In this document: positions 54,867-62,468 of the stretch, one piece after another | How the letters are laid out: each line of letters opens with the position of its first letter | Numbering within the stretch: position 1 is the first letter of the stretch | The notes under the pieces: generated by a model | Told to the model about the DNA's origin: nothing | What the model saw: the letters and a program-made list of their open reading frames with translations, nothing else | The model's database searches: none | DNA from: Micromonospora kangleipakensis | Lineage (GTDB): Bacteria > Actinomycetota > Actinomycetes > Mycobacteriales > Micromonosporaceae | Assembly (NCBI RefSeq): GCF_004217615.1 | Contig: NZ_SHLD01000001.1 | Location: 3,100,001-3,164,000 of the forward strand | Length of the DNA stretch: 64,000 nucleotides | Direction of reading: 5' to 3' | Made by a program: the position numbers and the translations under genes

Positions 54867-57035
54867 GTGAAGCAAGTTGTCCAGTCGGTATCCGGCGGCG
54901 AGTTGAAGGTCGCCGAGGTACCGCAGCCCGAGCCCGGCGCCACCGAGGTGCTCGTCGCCACGCGCAGGTCCCTGCTGTCAGCGGGCACCGAGCGCGCCGT
55001 GCGTGAGCTTGCCTCGGCGAGCCTGCTGCGCAAGGCCCGAGCGCGGCCGGATCTGGTCCGCCAGGTCGTGAGCAAGGCGCGGACCGAGGGCGTCCGCTCG
55101 ACGCTCGCCGCCGTGCGCAACCGGCTCGACGAGGACATGCCGCTCGGGTACAGCGCCTCGGGTGTCGTCGTCGCCGCCGGTGCCGCGACCGATGGCATTC
55201 GGCCGGGGATGCGCGTGGCCACGGCATCGGCGGGGCACGCCGAATATCAGGCAGTGCCCGGTCTGCTCGCGGTGCCAGTCCCCGAGGCGGTATCGGACCA
55301 GGCTGCCGCCTTCGGCGCGGTCGCGGCCATCGCGCTGCAAGGACTGCGGCAGGCCGAGGTGGGTGTGGGCGGCTCCGTCGCGGTCCTTGGCCTCGGCCTC
55401 GTCGGGCAACTGACGGTACGCCTGGCGCTCGCCTCGGGTCTCAACGTCATCGGCATCGACCTACGTGACTGGACGGCGGAACTGGCCCGAAGGGCCGGCG
55501 CGGTCGGTCTGGTCGAGGCCGGCGCGCCGACCACGGAAGAGATTCTTGAGATCACCCGTGGCCGCGGCGTCGACGCGATCCTGATCGCGGCGGCAACGCG
55601 GTCGTCGGAGCCGGTCGCGCGGGCTACCGAGATCGCCCGCGATCGCGGCCGGCTGGTCGTCGTCGGTGACGTAGGGCTGGAGCTCGACCGCAGGAAGTTC
55701 TACGAGCGGGAACTGGATCTTCGGTTCGCGCGCAGCTACGGCCCCGGCCGCTACGACCGCACCTACGAGGAATGGGGCGTCGACTATCCGATCGGCCACG
55801 TGCGTTGGACGGCACGGCGCAACATCGAGGCGTACCTCGACCTGGTGGCCAGTGGCAGGGTCACGGTCGATGACCTGGTCACGCATGTCTTTCCGGTGGA
55901 GCAGGCCACGGCGGCATACGACGTGCTGGACTCCGACCCACGCTCGCTCGCGGTGCAGCTCAGCTATGCGGCCCCGGCGCAGCCGTCCCGCAACGCGATC
56001 ACGATCCGGCCGCGCCGCAGCTCGCCGCGGCTGCGGGCGGGGCTGATCGGCGCCGGGAACTACGCCAAGGCGACGTTCCTGCCCGCGCTCAAAGCGGCCG
56101 GCTGGGCGGACGATCTCGTCGCCGTCACCTCCGCCAAGGGCCTGTCAGCGCAACACCTCGCGCAGCGCAACGACATCGCCGTCGTGGTACCGACCGTCGA
56201 GGACCTGCTTGCCCGCGATGACATCGACGTGGTGTTCATCCTCAGCCGCCACGACTCTCACGCCCGCCTGGCGGTGCAGGCGCTCGACGCCGGCAAGCAC
56301 GTGTTCGTCGAGAAGCCACTCGCGTTGAGCCAGGGCGAGCTCGACGAGCTCACGGCCGCCTATGACCGCAACTCGGGCCACCTGTTCGCCGGCTTCAACC
56401 GCCGGCACGCGCCCATGGTGGTACGCGCGAGGGAGGCCCTGGCGACCGGATCCGGGCCGCTGACCGTCGCCTACCGGATCAACGCCGGGTCGCTACCCCA
56501 CTCGCACTGGTACTACGACCGGCGCCAGGGCGGCCGCGTCTGCGGCGAGGTGTGCCACTTCATCGATCTCGCGTCATGGCTGGTTGGCGAGCAGCCGAGC
56601 GTCGTTCACGCACACGGCAGCGGGCGCGGCGAAACGGCGCTGGAAGAGGACGTGAGCGTGCTGCTCGGGTACGCCGACGGGTCCACGGCGACGATCACGT
56701 ATTGCACGCGCGGGCACCGGCGTACCCCCAAGGAACGCGTGGAGGTCCTCGGCCGCGGACACACGGTGGTGATCGACGACTTCCGGCGCCTGGAGATCGA
56801 CGGCTCGGAGGTGAAGCGGGTACCCGCGGGCAAGGGACACCATGACCTGCTCGCCCACCTGCGCTCGGCGATCTCAGGGGGCGCGCCCGATAGACCGGGC
56901 CTCGAAGCATCGTTCGGTACGACGAAGGCCGCGCTGTCGGTGGTCGCCGCCTTGGCCGGCATCCAGGTGAACCCGTCGCGCCTGCTGACGCAGGTGGACC
57001 CGGCGACCGCCGTGGACGCCGGGTTCAGCTCATGA
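54867..57035 (+). CDS. Bi-domain oxidoreductase: MDR dehydrogenase fused to Gfo/Idh/MocA
   Basis: A 722-residue fusion. Residues 1-370 are a medium-chain (alcohol dehydrogenase-like) NAD(P) domain with MPLGYSASGVVVAAGAATDG and SVAVLGLGLVGQLTVRLALA. It lacks an obvious structural-zinc cysteine cluster. Residues 385-722 are a Gfo/Idh/MocA domain with RAGLIGAGNYAKATFLPALK, the catalytic-Lys motif VFVEKPLAL and GEVCHFIDLASWLVGEQP. Such fusions occur in polysaccharide loci, often beside heparinase-like proteins, and probably act on a nucleotide-linked or free sugar acid; no heparinase gene is here. GTG 54867 has AAGGCAGG upstream. Confidence 0.87.
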   Translation: MKQVVQSVSGGELKVAEVPQPEPGATEVLVATRRSLLSAGTERAVRELASASLLRKARARPDLVRQVVSKARTEGVRSTLAAVRNRLDEDMPLGYSASGVVVAAGAATDGIRPGMRVATASAGHAEYQAVPGLLAVPVPEAVSDQAAAFGAVAAIALQGLRQAEVGVGGSVAVLGLGLVGQLTVRLALASGLNVIGIDLRDWTAELARRAGAVGLVEAGAPTTEEILEITRGRGVDAILIAAATRSSEPVARATEIARDRGRLVVVGDVGLELDRRKFYERELDLRFARSYGPGRYDRTYEEWGVDYPIGHVRWTARRNIEAYLDLVASGRVTVDDLVTHVFPVEQATAAYDVLDSDPRSLAVQLSYAAPAQPSRNAITIRPRRSSPRLRAGLIGAGNYAKATFLPALKAAGWADDLVAVTSAKGLSAQHLAQRNDIAVVVPTVEDLLARDDIDVVFILSRHDSHARLAVQALDAGKHVFVEKPLALSQGELDELTAAYDRNSGHLFAGFNRRHAPMVVRAREALATGSGPLTVAYRINAGSLPHSHWYYDRRQGGRVCGEVCHFIDLASWLVGEQPSVVHAHGSGRGETALEEDVSVLLGYADGSTATITYCTRGHRRTPKERVEVLGRGHTVVIDDFRRLEIDGSEVKRVPAGKGHHDLLAHLRSAISGGAPDRPGLEASFGTTKAALSVVAALAGIQVNPSRLLTQVDPATAVDAGFSS

Positions 57036-57205
57036 ACGCGCAAGCGCGGCTGACTCAAGCTGCGCGAGGACAGGCGGGTTCGGCGGAAGTGGATGACCGC
57101 CAAGCCTGCACACGAATGCAACTGTTTGCGTGGCACAAAGGCGAGCTGTGCAGGAGTGGATCTCAGCTCACCTGCACGACTTAGTCGAACCAACAAGGAT
57201 GTGTT

Positions 57206-58627
57206 GTGATTAATCGGGAGGACGTCTACTTCCGGCTTCCGGCAATGGCCCAGAACATGCTGATGTCAGTTGCTGGCGTGGGAGTGAATAGAAAGAGGTA
57301 CGGAGCGCTCTTCCATCGGCGCCTTGCCGAGTACGAGGATCGAGATATGTGGGATCCGGAGCGGATATCAATATTCCGCAAAACGAGGCGAGCTGCTGTC
57401 CTGGAATATGCATCCCGTACTCCATACTATAAAAGTGTTTTCGAAAGGATGGGCGCAACATGGCGCGACCTGGTCGACGACAGCGCCTTCATTGAAATAC
57501 CCTTGACGCACAAAAGCGATGTGCGTGACCGTCCGAACGATTTCCTTGCTCGACCGCGGGCGAAGGGCGATAGCATCGTCCGGACTTCCGGCACAACAGG
57601 AACATCTCTGGCTATATGTAAGGATGTCAACGCGATCGCGGAGATGTGGGCCGTTTGGTGGCGCTACAGGCATCGGCATGGGATCACGAGAGGCACGTGG
57701 TGCGCCTTCTTTAGTGGAAAGCGCGTTATCGGAGCGAGCCAGGGCGTGCCGTACTGGAGAACGAATTACCCAGGCCGTGAAGTGCGTTTCAGTGGGCACC
57801 ATATATCGCCAGCCACCGTGAAATGTTACGTTGACAAGCTCAATCGCTCGCGTTTGCCGTGGATTCACGGGTTTCCGTCAGTTATTGCGAATTTGGCAAG
57901 ATGCATGCTTGAGAGAGGCGTAGGTCTTGACTACCAGCCTCTCGTCCTCACCCTTGGCGGCGAGAATCTAACGCCTTGGCAGTTGAAGAGCATCCAAGGT
58001 GCATTCGGTGTGACGCCAGTCCAACATTACGGTCTCGCCGAACAGGTCGCGAATATCTCTGAATGTGTCGAAGGTCGGCTGCATGTCGATGAAGACTTCG
58101 CCGAGGTTGAGCTGATCAATCAGGGTGGTGGGTTGTCTCAGATTGTTGGGACGCCGTACGGCAACGGGGCTACTGTGTTGCTGCGATACGCTACTGGCGA
58201 TCTTGCGGTCGCTGCCAAGGATCACTGCACTTGCGGGCGTGCGGGACGGGTTGTCGCGTCTATAGACGGCCGAGAGGCTGACCTCATTGTCCTTCCCGAT
58301 GGTCGGTTTACCGCGCCAGGTGCCGCGTTCTCACCTGCCCTCGGGCTGGCGGAGGCGCAGGTTATTCAGCACGAGAACGGAAGCCTGACCGTGAGATACG
58401 TACCGTCTGTTGGATGGTCGGCAAGCTCTCTGGAAGCGATGGACCATTCATTACGTAAGTATGTCGGGCAGGCGCTGGAGGTCAACTACGTCCGAGTTGA
58501 CGAAGTGCAACGGACACCGACTGGGAAGGTCCGCTTTGCGATTTCAGAGATGCGCGGCAACGATCGGACCAATCAGGTGAGCCTATCCCTGGAGGAACGG
58601 GGCCGTGTTGTCTCCTCACAGTTGTGA
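57206..58627 (+). CDS. CapK/PaaK-like AMP-forming ligase family protein
   Basis: A 473-residue member of the phenylacetate-CoA ligase-like (CapK) branch of the adenylating enzymes. It has SIVRTSGTTGTSLAICKDVN (the ATP-binding loop), LGGENLTPWQLKSI, VQHYGLAEQVANISECVEG, LLRYATGDLAV and, at the end, RTPTGKVRFAISE with the catalytic-Lys region. CapK proteins are frequent in capsule loci, where they are thought to activate an acyl group for transfer; the substrate is unknown. GTG 57206 has AAGGA upstream. Its base composition is visibly poorer in G+C, with many A/T third positions, so it was probably acquired recently. Confidence 0.88.
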   Translation: MINREDVYFRLPAMAQNMLMSVAGVGVNRKRYGALFHRRLAEYEDRDMWDPERISIFRKTRRAAVLEYASRTPYYKSVFERMGATWRDLVDDSAFIEIPLTHKSDVRDRPNDFLARPRAKGDSIVRTSGTTGTSLAICKDVNAIAEMWAVWWRYRHRHGITRGTWCAFFSGKRVIGASQGVPYWRTNYPGREVRFSGHHISPATVKCYVDKLNRSRLPWIHGFPSVIANLARCMLERGVGLDYQPLVLTLGGENLTPWQLKSIQGAFGVTPVQHYGLAEQVANISECVEGRLHVDEDFAEVELINQGGGLSQIVGTPYGNGATVLLRYATGDLAVAAKDHCTCGRAGRVVASIDGREADLIVLPDGRFTAPGAAFSPALGLAEAQVIQHENGSLTVRYVPSVGWSASSLEAMDHSLRKYVGQALEVNYVRVDEVQRTPTGKVRFAISEMRGNDRTNQVSLSLEERGRVVSSQL

Positions 58628-60103: not shown

Positions 60104-60310
60104 TGCGGGCAGCGCGGCGACAGCCCGCAGTTCATCCCGGTCCTGGCCGCCATCCGCCCCCGCTTGACCACCGGCCGCCCGAGGACCCGACCGGACCGGG
60201 GTCCTCGCCGACAAGCCGTACACCTCGAAGGACAACAGGGCCTACCTGCGCCGACGCGGCATCGCCGCGACGATCCCGAGAAACCGACCATCGCGGAAGT
60301 TCGCCCGGTC
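60104..60310 (+). pseudogene. IS5-family transposase fragment (left part)
   Basis: The frame from 60104 reads CGQRGDSPQFIPVLAAIRP, a standard core of IS5-type DDE transposases. After a frameshift near 60195 the next frame continues with VLADKPYTSKDNRAYLRRRG, then IAATIP, the block that carries the second catalytic region. The N-terminal part and the end are missing. It lies on the + strand, like the second piece at 62384. Confidence 0.7.
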
Positions 60311-60372
60311 CAGGGTCCCTACAGAGGGTCTTCGGCCCAGCAGCGGCGTACTTGCCGTCCACCGCCGTTCAT

Positions 60373-60975
60373 CTAATGGTCCACTGTGAAATCTATAGGC
60401 TTCAGGGTTCCGTTGTTGGAGTTCTCGGCCGAGCATGCCGTCAGTGCCACAATGAGATCGGACTCGGCGCGCAGAAGGATGTGATCCCCCGGTCGACTCA
60501 TCGGGGGCCCGAGCAGCATTTTCCCAGTACTGCAGTCGTAGACCACATTCATGAAGATGTTGAAGCTTACGCCGATGTGGTCAACGGCCACCTCGTACGG
60601 AGCCAAGGCATCAGCGATGTTCTGTTCGCAGCTCGGGTGATAGCCCTCATGGTCGGGGTAGAGGAGGTCGAAGGTCTGCTGAGAGCAGGGAGTGAGGGTG
60701 AAGTCGTGCCTGCCCACAGTGTCTTCGATGATCCGTAGCATTGGTTGGCTGCGATTGCTGTAGAGCATGTCACCGGTGGTCAGCCATAGCTTCCCGGCGT
60801 AGTCCAGGCTGCGGCCGGACGAGAGATGCTCCGCTCGATCATCGGCCGATACGGCGTACAGGTCGCTGACCTGTTCTCCGTTCGGATCGATGACACGGAG
60901 ATATGCCCCGGCCGGTAGCTCAAACGCTGTGCCGGTCTGGGGGGCGAGACGCTGGGTGGTGGTGGTATCCGTCAT
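60373..60975 (-). CDS. DUF1989 (urea carboxylase-associated) family protein
   Basis: A 200-residue soluble protein of the DUF1989 family: FELPAGAYLRVIDPNGEQVS at the start, KLWLTTGDMLYSNRSQPMLR, LTPCSQQTFDLLYPDHEGYH with conserved Cys/His, and VSFNIFMNVVYDCSTGKM near the end. DUF1989 proteins accompany urea/guanidine breakdown; two of them form carboxyguanidine deiminase in guanidine users, so guanidino chemistry is plausible. ATG 60975 overlaps the upstream stop as TGATG and has TGGAGCAG, so the two genes are coupled. Base composition is lower in G+C than the surroundings. Confidence 0.85.
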   Translation of the reverse strand: MTDTTTTQRLAPQTGTAFELPAGAYLRVIDPNGEQVSDLYAVSADDRAEHLSSGRSLDYAGKLWLTTGDMLYSNRSQPMLRIIEDTVGRHDFTLTPCSQQTFDLLYPDHEGYHPSCEQNIADALAPYEVAVDHIGVSFNIFMNVVYDCSTGKMLLGPPMSRPGDHILLRAESDLIVALTACSAENSNNGTLKPIDFTVDH

Positions 60976-61901
60976 CAGTCTGCTCCATTGGGATAAGAGG
61001 CGCCGACGGTGCTCGTGGCGGGCGCAGCGAAGGGACATTGCCAGTCGGCTTCGACCTCACGCCCCGCGTACTGTCGCGCTTCAGAAGCCTCGCCGAACTG
61101 CATGAGCATGGGATTGGGGCGGCCCTGCAGACGTCCGTCCTTGGCACGAATAGTCCGGCTGACCCGATCCATCTGCCCCCGTTGTCGCAGGGCGTCGAAC
61201 TGTGCGTGTAGGTTGAAGACCAGCGTGAGGACTGGAGCGGTCCGCGCGATGCGGGATGCCTTTGGATGCATGCCGACCACAAAGAATGCCTGACCGGAGA
61301 CGCTGAAGGAAAACCGCGGGTCGTCCGGATCCATCGACACGGCTGGATCCCAGGGCCACTTCCGCGTGTCCTCCTCGTGAACGAAACTCAAGTGACGCCA
61401 CAGCAAGCGTTCGAAGTCGCCCTCATCGTCGACCATCGGATGTTCATACATCGAGATGAACGTTGCAAAAGGTTCCTGAGGCGTGCGACGGATCGCGTAG
61501 CTCTGCACGAACCACTCGAGATCCCTGGTAAGGCAACGGGCCGATTCTTTTGCCCCCAGCTCGTCGTAGACAGCAAAGGCGTAGTTGTCGGCGCGCATCA
61601 CTGATGCCCCCATCAGGCAAGGGTACGCACTGCTCAGGACCGCGGCTCGAAACTTGTCATGGAGCAGTCGGGTGCGTGGGTGGGCGGGGCGGCCGTCGAT
61701 GACCCTGCACAACCGGCGCCCTTGGACGGTGAACACGCCGTGAGCCGCAGGTACCGCATCCGTAGGTGGAATCTCTGCCTCCACCCACCCGGCGCGCGGC
61801 CCCGCTATCGCCGTGCGCTGCGTCGGCGCCTCCACGCTGACCTCCGTCCCAGCCGCGCCGGAACCCCCAGCAGCCTGCCCTGTCAGCTCGGGGCGGGTCA
61901 C
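60975..61901 (-). CDS. YqcI/YcgG family protein, GntA-like putative heme N-oxygenase
   Basis: A 308-residue soluble protein. After an Ala/Gly/Thr-rich start (1-45), the family core reads AVLSSAYPCLMGASVMRADN, FATFISMYEHPMVDDEGDFE, LLWRHLSFVHEEDTRKWPWD, FSVSGQAFFVVGMHPKASRI and PNPMLMQFGEASEARQY, all matching the YqcI/YcgG (PF08892) pattern. The family includes GntA, a heme-dependent N-hydroxylase of a guanidino precursor in guanitoxin synthesis. By homology this protein may hydroxylate a guanidino or amino nitrogen. It is coupled to the DUF1989 gene. The GTG start at 61901 is moderate. The position inside a split transposase suggests transfer. Confidence 0.82.
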   Translation of the reverse strand: MTRPELTGQAAGGSGAAGTEVSVEAPTQRTAIAGPRAGWVEAEIPPTDAVPAAHGVFTVQGRRLCRVIDGRPAHPRTRLLHDKFRAAVLSSAYPCLMGASVMRADNYAFAVYDELGAKESARCLTRDLEWFVQSYAIRRTPQEPFATFISMYEHPMVDDEGDFERLLWRHLSFVHEEDTRKWPWDPAVSMDPDDPRFSFSVSGQAFFVVGMHPKASRIARTAPVLTLVFNLHAQFDALRQRGQMDRVSRTIRAKDGRLQGRPNPMLMQFGEASEARQYAGREVEADWQCPFAAPATSTVGASYPNGAD

Positions 61902-62383
61902 CGTCCCATCACCCCGGCGCCCGACAATCCGGTTGCCACCTTGGCCTCGCCGATCGCCAAAAGATTGGCCAGGGGGAGGAACTTGTCGCGCGCCGTCACG
62001 ACCTACCGTTCCAGGTGGCCGTCAGTGTGCCGCTTGGCGAGCCTGTCTCGGAAAGGTCGGTCGCCAACGCATTCGGGAGGGCGCTGTCTGACCAAAGATC
62101 ACCGCCGCCATTGATATTCCCAACTGCTCCGAACCAGTCCATCTTGCACACAGGCGCTCCCGTTGAATCTGATCATGAACGTTTCTGGGATTCATAGCTA
62201 TGAGAACTCGGCCAGGCCCATCCTAGAGAGTGCCGGCGGGCCGCAAGGCTGACTGACAGAAATTGCGCGGACGGATATTGCTGCGGCAAGCGAAGGCGTT
62301 GGCCGGCCGCCAGGACGATCGCCGCGAACGCGGTTCCGGGACGATTCGGCAGTCAACCCCCGGGCGGGCGTGACGCCCAGCGC
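61902..62383. other. Intergenic stretch upstream of the N-oxygenase gene
   Basis: About 480 bases with mixed, lower G+C composition around 62090-62220. It should hold the promoter of the two-gene unit. A short frame at 62015-62197 has no recognisable product. No inverted terminal repeat was found by eye. Confidence 0.4.
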
Positions 62384-62468
62384 ACAGTGGCGTGACCTGG
62401 CCATCCGCTACGCCAAACGCGCACCCCGCTGCCGGGTCAGCCTCGTCCTGATCGCCGCCGTCATCTGG
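62384..62468 (+). pseudogene. IS5-family transposase fragment (C-terminal end)
   Basis: The + strand reads QWRDLAIRYAKRAPRCRVSL then VLIAAVIW, the usual ending of IS5-type transposases (WRxLAxRYxKxA followed by a hydrophobic helix). It is in the same orientation as the fragment at 60104 and would be its continuation after a short gap in the protein. It overlaps the last codons of the ABC transporter on the other strand. Confidence 0.55.

Follow-up and report, generated by a model that had tools for sequence, protein, structure and literature searches.

A gene for a GntA-type member of the YqcI/YcgG family and a gene for a DUF1989 protein lie end to end in a stretch of 64,000 nucleotides of the Micromonospora kangleipakensis genome (contig NZ_SHLD01000001.1, positions 3,100,001 to 3,164,000; hereafter the window, with positions counted from its first letter). 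The two genes form a recurrent, conserved unit. Several phyla carry it, both in chromosomes and on plasmids, and the catalytic residues expected of the two families are preserved. On balance, the pair probably acts as a self-contained metabolic module, in which a guanidino nitrogen would be hydroxylated by the GntA-type protein and the product then cleaved at a C-N bond by the DUF1989 protein in a metal-dependent step. An earlier note on this DNA had proposed the two families, their overlap and a minimal, portable pathway, and had named recurrent pairing and conserved heme-ligand residues as tests; all of these are supported. The guanidine riboswitch that it suggested looking for and its link to the DUF1989 proteins of guanidine and urea degradation are not supported.

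The recurrence of the pair was surveyed in 398 Pseudomonadota genomes, one per species. PF08892, the Pfam family of YqcI/YcgG proteins, was found in 22 of them (23 genes), and in all 22 a DUF1989 gene directly followed a PF08892 gene, on the same strand and in the same order; a second copy in genome G499 alone stood without one. The pairing, whose absence had been named beforehand as grounds for refutation, is far beyond chance. When the DUF1989 protein of the window was used as the query against the same genomes, DUF1989 proteins were recovered at E <=1e-10 in 106; the 22 matches at 48-62% identity all fell in the 22 PF08892-bearing genomes, and the next best reached 39%. The other 84 genomes, which lack PF08892, thus hold DUF1989 proteins of other kinds and not the subtype of the pair. 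A check with the Pfam profile detected any DUF1989 in 3 of 20 PF08892-free genomes. The match at 39% (G679:C13:514030-514590) comes from a genome in which PF08892 was not detected; no other relative from outside the pairs in the 398 genomes is closer, and it could represent a sister subtype.

Among Actinomycetota, 9 of 346 genomes scored above the PF08892 cut-off (a count that excludes the sub-cut-off G204 and G042), and six of the nine, from three genera and with the window genome counted in, carried the pair; G130, G173, G237 and G327 belong to one genus. The exceptions were G195 and G235, which had no DUF1989, and G050, in which two tandem DUF1989 genes lay on another contig. Loci from Oxalicibacterium, which is also among the 22, Alteromonas and Thioalkalivibrio were paired in 3/3 cases. 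At 29 of 30 chromosomal loci the junction, taken from the end of the first gene to the start of the matched DUF1989, ranged from an 11-base overlap to 62 bases; the thirtieth (L075) is a truncated open reading frame call, with a full DUF1989 domain 56 bases away. Neighbours were called heuristically, and the independence of lineages was judged from genome handles and trees. Both families also occur in the genome of Bacillus subtilis, in which ycgG, ycgH and ycgI are neighbouring genes. In Oxalicibacterium flavum, a SECIS_3 element (RF01989, 70 bits; L003 8451-8509) lies roughly 1.3 kb past the pair.

Plasmids carry the pair as well. Twenty-three plasmid records matched the GntA-like protein and a DUF1989 gene adjoined the match in 14, comprising 14 of the 17 records that strongly matched a profile built from relatives of the window protein versus 0 of the 6 that matched it weakly (a split for which L108 was scored as two pieces added); the paired hosts include Deinococcus ficus, Chryseobacterium, Hymenobacter, sphingomonads, Comamonas and Skermanella. 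In the reverse search with DUF1989, among the best 40 of 435 plasmid records, the top 14 were these same 14 (49-59% identity), followed by matches at 39% or less. Six of the 14 pair-bearing plasmids were typed as conjugative or mobilizable, and neither a neighbourhood common to the other copies of the pair nor a recurring third gene was found, which fits the earlier description of a minimal, portable unit. Two plasmid copies are broken: in Hymenobacter volaticus (L103 4698-5272) DUF1989 is split across frames, and on pSA1 of Novosphingobium resinovorum (L108 2998-3655) the GntA-type gene is split, with an unbroken copy on pSA2 of the same strain (L098).

The family assignments were upheld by scores of 186.3 bits to PF08892 for the GntA-type protein and 172.8 bits to PF09347 for the DUF1989 protein (gathering cut-offs of 27). 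The former has its domain at residues ~52-292, following ~50 mostly low-confidence residues, and shows the sandwich fold of AglA. Its candidate heme ligand, C95, aligns in a profile alignment with the axial Cys44 of AglA, the counterpart of which in ChmN is Cys47, and in a multiple alignment this column was Cys in 42/42 paired and 13/13 unpaired PF08892 rows. F207, N230, H232 and F235 are candidate pocket residues, and R220 is a candidate for the propionate site. R220 was aligned to AglA Arg166 in the profile alignment, whereas column 220 was Ser in all seven distant rows of the multiple alignment; because the two alignments disagree here, this match is less sure than those of C95, F207 and F235.

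A tree of PF08892 proteins, which like the residue counts excludes L103 and L108 for their split frames, resolved two deep groups (100/100). Every one of the 42 paired rows fell in the first, together with 6 unpaired ones; the second consisted of 7 unpaired rows (haloarchaea, Thioclava and G195), which carry Gln or Asn at position 230 and Arg at 232, like Gln177/Arg179 of AglA as mapped by the profile alignment. The DUF1989 partner thus belongs to one PF08892 branch, and a few members of that branch either dropped it or never acquired it. A single origin of pairing was disfavoured, as the paired label needs three changes on this tree, not one.

The DUF1989 protein of the window shows the family fold and three candidate zinc-site cysteines, C97, C116 and C181, together with H90-D91. 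These residues were kept in 40-41 of the 41 paired DUF1989 rows; in the non-paired rows the cysteines were present in 10, 10 and 13 of 16. In the DUF1989 tree, a branch (100/100, length 1.63) separated 29 paired rows from 16 others, these being six tandem pairs, classed as CgdAB-like from their arrangement, two long proteins, classed as Tdm-like from their length, and two singles; L075 (a partial open reading frame), a duplicate of the window copy and all plasmid rows are excluded from this tree. G54, R55, D58, Y59, S186, N187, K192 and I194 showed no or almost no variation across the 41 paired rows and were present in 0/16 others. S52 and P193 were dropped as pair-specific residues, being common to 8 and 10 of the 16 others.

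This separate clade bears on the first alternative, that the DUF1989 protein serves guanidine or urea assimilation alongside a carboxylase of either compound, in the manner of the carboxyguanidine deiminase CgdAB (UAAP1-UAAP2); PMC11271267 describes characterised DUF1989 proteins as acting on carboxyguanidine. The Pfam family is the same and the UAAP2 equivalog was matched at 100.2 bits, but this falls well below its cut-off of 284.7, as does the UAAP1 match (60.8 versus 205.95 bits), and the tandem DUF1989 proteins classed as CgdAB-like lack the GR..DY motif and the K192/I194 tail. A CgdAB/UAAP system has two DUF1989 genes, and the host genome (7.27 Mb) yielded one DUF1989 match at E 0.001, along with one PF08892 match. 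No guanidine riboswitch reached the Rfam gathering score in the whole window or in 35 loci round PF08892 genes (some unpaired or overlapping), and the 25 most frequent of the 100 families represented in 66 near neighbours included no carboxylase. We therefore regard an assimilatory role as very improbable.

The proposal that the GntA-type protein N-hydroxylates a guanidino compound is drawn from its relatives. By one count six bacterial PF08892 enzymes have been characterised (PMC12866846), and AglA (PMC12866846) and ChmN (PMC10849742), both YqcI/YcgG proteins, are described as hydroxylating a guanidine nitrogen. The window protein resembles AglA/AlpD, ChmN and GntA in profile, fold, heme cysteine and aromatic sandwich residues, as compared with AglA; it differs in having a coupled DUF1989 gene and no recurrent biosynthetic cluster. 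By analogy with the characterised members, the GntA-type protein would bind heme through Cys95, be reduced by a general host ferredoxin/reductase and hydroxylate a guanidino nitrogen of a small substrate. The DUF1989 protein, presumably a three-cysteine zinc (possibly also iron) enzyme, would then take over the labile N-hydroxyguanidine and cleave it at a C-N bond to yield ammonia, hydroxylamine or hydroxyurea along with the remainder of the molecule; the overlap of the genes may keep DUF1989 in step with the heme enzyme. The pocket residues are invariant across phyla, which argues for one common, conserved substrate. With no third gene recurring beside the pair, this substrate is likely to be an everyday metabolite, and general ferredoxins are the likely electron source.

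The scheme would follow the logic of DcsA/DcsB, a heme N-hydroxylase plus a hydrolase yielding hydroxyurea, with a different second enzyme. DcsB has an arginase-like fold. DcsA is described as a YqcI/YcgG heme protein (PMC8976061), and DcsA and DcsB as converting arginine to hydroxyurea (PMC10214352). A heme protein of this family plus a second enzyme is thus common to both systems, but DcsB is termed a hydroxyarginase whereas the second gene in the window matches DUF1989 only among Pfam families, and no cycloserine cluster was seen near the window pair.

Several observations weigh against this two-step module. The substrate-contact residues Gln177 and Arg179 of AglA are replaced by N230 and H232 in the window protein, and Lys196, Arg200, Lys225 and Gln228 of AglA could not be mapped onto it. 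Within the pair clade, 6 of the 48 rows are unpaired (two Streptomyces plasmids, Rahnella, two Actinomycetota genomes and one extra copy), and because they occur without DUF1989 the heme enzyme can work alone. No regulator, transporter or redox partner common to the copies was detected. Furthermore, the chemistry of the DUF1989 family is not fixed, because the DUF1989 domain of Tdm sits in a demethylase. According to PMC12560246, this is the metal domain of an enzyme acting on an N-oxide, and Tdm binds zinc and iron, both at sites in or beside it. The window protein is like this trimethylamine N-oxide demethylase in its DUF1989 domain and three zinc cysteines, with an oxidised-nitrogen substrate on the side of Tdm; Tdm has ~760-800 residues and a GCV_T domain, versus 200 residues and a single domain. 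Identification of the window protein as Tdm was rejected (97.4 versus 1100 bits, one Pfam domain, no GCV_T).

A second alternative is that DUF1989 is a partner subunit (a scaffold, a metal or redox helper, or a protector) that sustains the activity of the heme enzyme or confines the compound which this enzyme makes. The fixed gene order and tight coupling are consistent with this, as is a correlation between the distance matrices of the two proteins (r = 0.80 over 41 pairs, uncorrected for species history), and inactive DUF1989 cognates are mentioned for CgdAB in PMC11271267. The retention of the zinc cysteines and H90/D91 goes beyond the needs of a scaffold, however, and unpaired relatives of the heme enzyme exist; we consider a subunit role doubtful, if conceivable.

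Hydroxylation of nitrogen by a thiolate-heme enzyme mirrors the first step of nitric oxide synthase, which lends something to a third alternative, that an iron/zinc centre in DUF1989 oxidatively splits the N-hydroxyguanidine to nitric oxide (NO) or nitroxyl (HNO) as a signal or stress molecule. The metal binding of Tdm in or beside its DUF1989 domain and its handling of an N-oxide, as given in PMC12560246, point the same way, although we hold such a nitric oxide synthase-like pair to be improbable. On a further-reaching reading, which is speculative and unlikely, the pair would be a widespread, mobile two-protein route in bacteria from a common guanidino metabolite to a reactive nitrogen product (hydroxylamine, hydroxyurea or NO/HNO). 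It would then be a counterpart of nitric oxide synthase, assembled from an unrelated thiolate-heme enzyme and a DUF1989 metalloenzyme, and would serve in signalling, attack or the response to stress and not in nutrition.

The name applied by NCBI would make the pair part of guanitoxin or guanitoxin-like natural product synthesis; of the 23 plasmid records, 14 are annotated as 'guanitoxin biosynthesis GntA'. The window protein does match NF041366, the guanitoxin GntA equivalog of NCBIfam, at 260.3 bits (cut-off 145). No other Gnt model was found in the four flanking proteins, among the matches listed (the host genome beyond these being unscanned), and no recurring cluster was detected round the pair. 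A guanitoxin role is highly improbable, and we read the name on these genes as that of a family and not as evidence for guanitoxin.

At the locus itself (Table 1), the TGATG overlap was read directly in the sequence and suggests translational coupling of the two genes. A mechanical call of the DUF1989 frame reaches a further ATG at 61038 (221 residues); the shorter start adopted here agrees in length with the Micromonospora relative P0121 (200 residues).

Table 1. Features of the GntA-type/DUF1989 locus (window positions)
Feature	Position	Strand	Details
GntA-type YqcI/YcgG gene, predicted thiolate-heme N-oxygenase	60975..61901	minus	308 aa, GTG start, PF08892 + NF041366
DUF1989 gene, pair-specific clade	60373..60975	minus	200 aa, PF09347
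TGATG stop/start overlap	60973..60977	minus	TGA 60977-60975, ATG 60975-60973, one base common
Intergenic gap up to ABC exporter gene	61902..62460	minus	559 bp

The promoter of the pair is presumed to lie in the intergenic gap, in which no sigma-70-like site and no known riboswitch were found. Upstream of this gap, on the same strand, is the ATP-binding cassette (ABC) exporter gene; the plus-strand neighbours encode a GT4 glycosyltransferase, a Gfo/Idh/MocA-ADH fusion (both by Pfam) and a protein with PaaK-type matches under the cut-off only. An exopolysaccharide locus, as the earlier note had it, is plausible from the glycosyltransferase, Gfo/Idh/MocA and exporter genes, but the other copies of the pair revealed no neighbourhood in common. 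Just downstream of the pair, a short plus-strand frame (60201-60371) weakly resembles a DDE transposase (PF13586, 19.2 bits, below cut-off) and is possibly an insertion-element remnant. The G+C fraction is 0.56-0.57 at 57000-58199, under the PaaK-like gene, versus 0.69-0.72 in the preceding 3 kb, and this gene is possibly foreign.

Other contexts were seen round YqcI/YcgG genes without DUF1989. In Halomontanus rarus (L112 2905-4364), a distant YqcI/YcgG gene has a 4-base overlap with the gene for an isochorismatase-family hydrolase (PF00857, 110.9 bits), and this hydrolase is possibly a stand-in for DUF1989 in another case of an N-oxygenase plus a hydrolase. On three annotated haloarchaeal plasmids (L106 1555-4657, L113 561-3660 and L115 550-3660), distant YqcI/YcgG genes lie behind sulfotransferase and adenylyl-sulfate kinase genes, a set that is a candidate for making O-sulfated N-hydroxy compounds. 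A GntA-type gene on a Rahnella conjugative plasmid (L104 3824-8492) heads a same-strand run encoding a short-chain dehydrogenase/reductase, a 2Fe-2S protein, a LysE-type exporter, a B3/4-domain protein and a MOSC protein; this run has the appearance of a biosynthetic cluster that supplies its own redox partner. Unpaired genes in Thioclava (L105 2857-5310) and on a Streptomyces plasmid (L100 3223-5612) likewise lie near LysE-family exporters, hinting at an amino-acid-like exported product.

Among the papers listed by a literature search, none joined DUF1989 with YcgG or YqcI, or 'urea carboxylase-associated' with GntA, guanitoxin, YcgG or N-hydroxylase; most subscription papers fell outside this search, so that it is weak evidence that the PF08892-DUF1989 pair is undescribed. 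Enzymes of PF08892 have been studied in antibiotic and toxin clusters, whereas their commonest setting in this survey is a bare two-gene unit with DUF1989, and many of the genes concerned are now named after guanitoxin, a cyanobacterial toxin pathway. The pair adds to the DUF1989 family a new clade whose substrate is predicted to be N-oxidised, and the role of PF08892 outside natural-product clusters can be tested directly with a unit of just two genes that is easy to clone and has invariant active-site residues.
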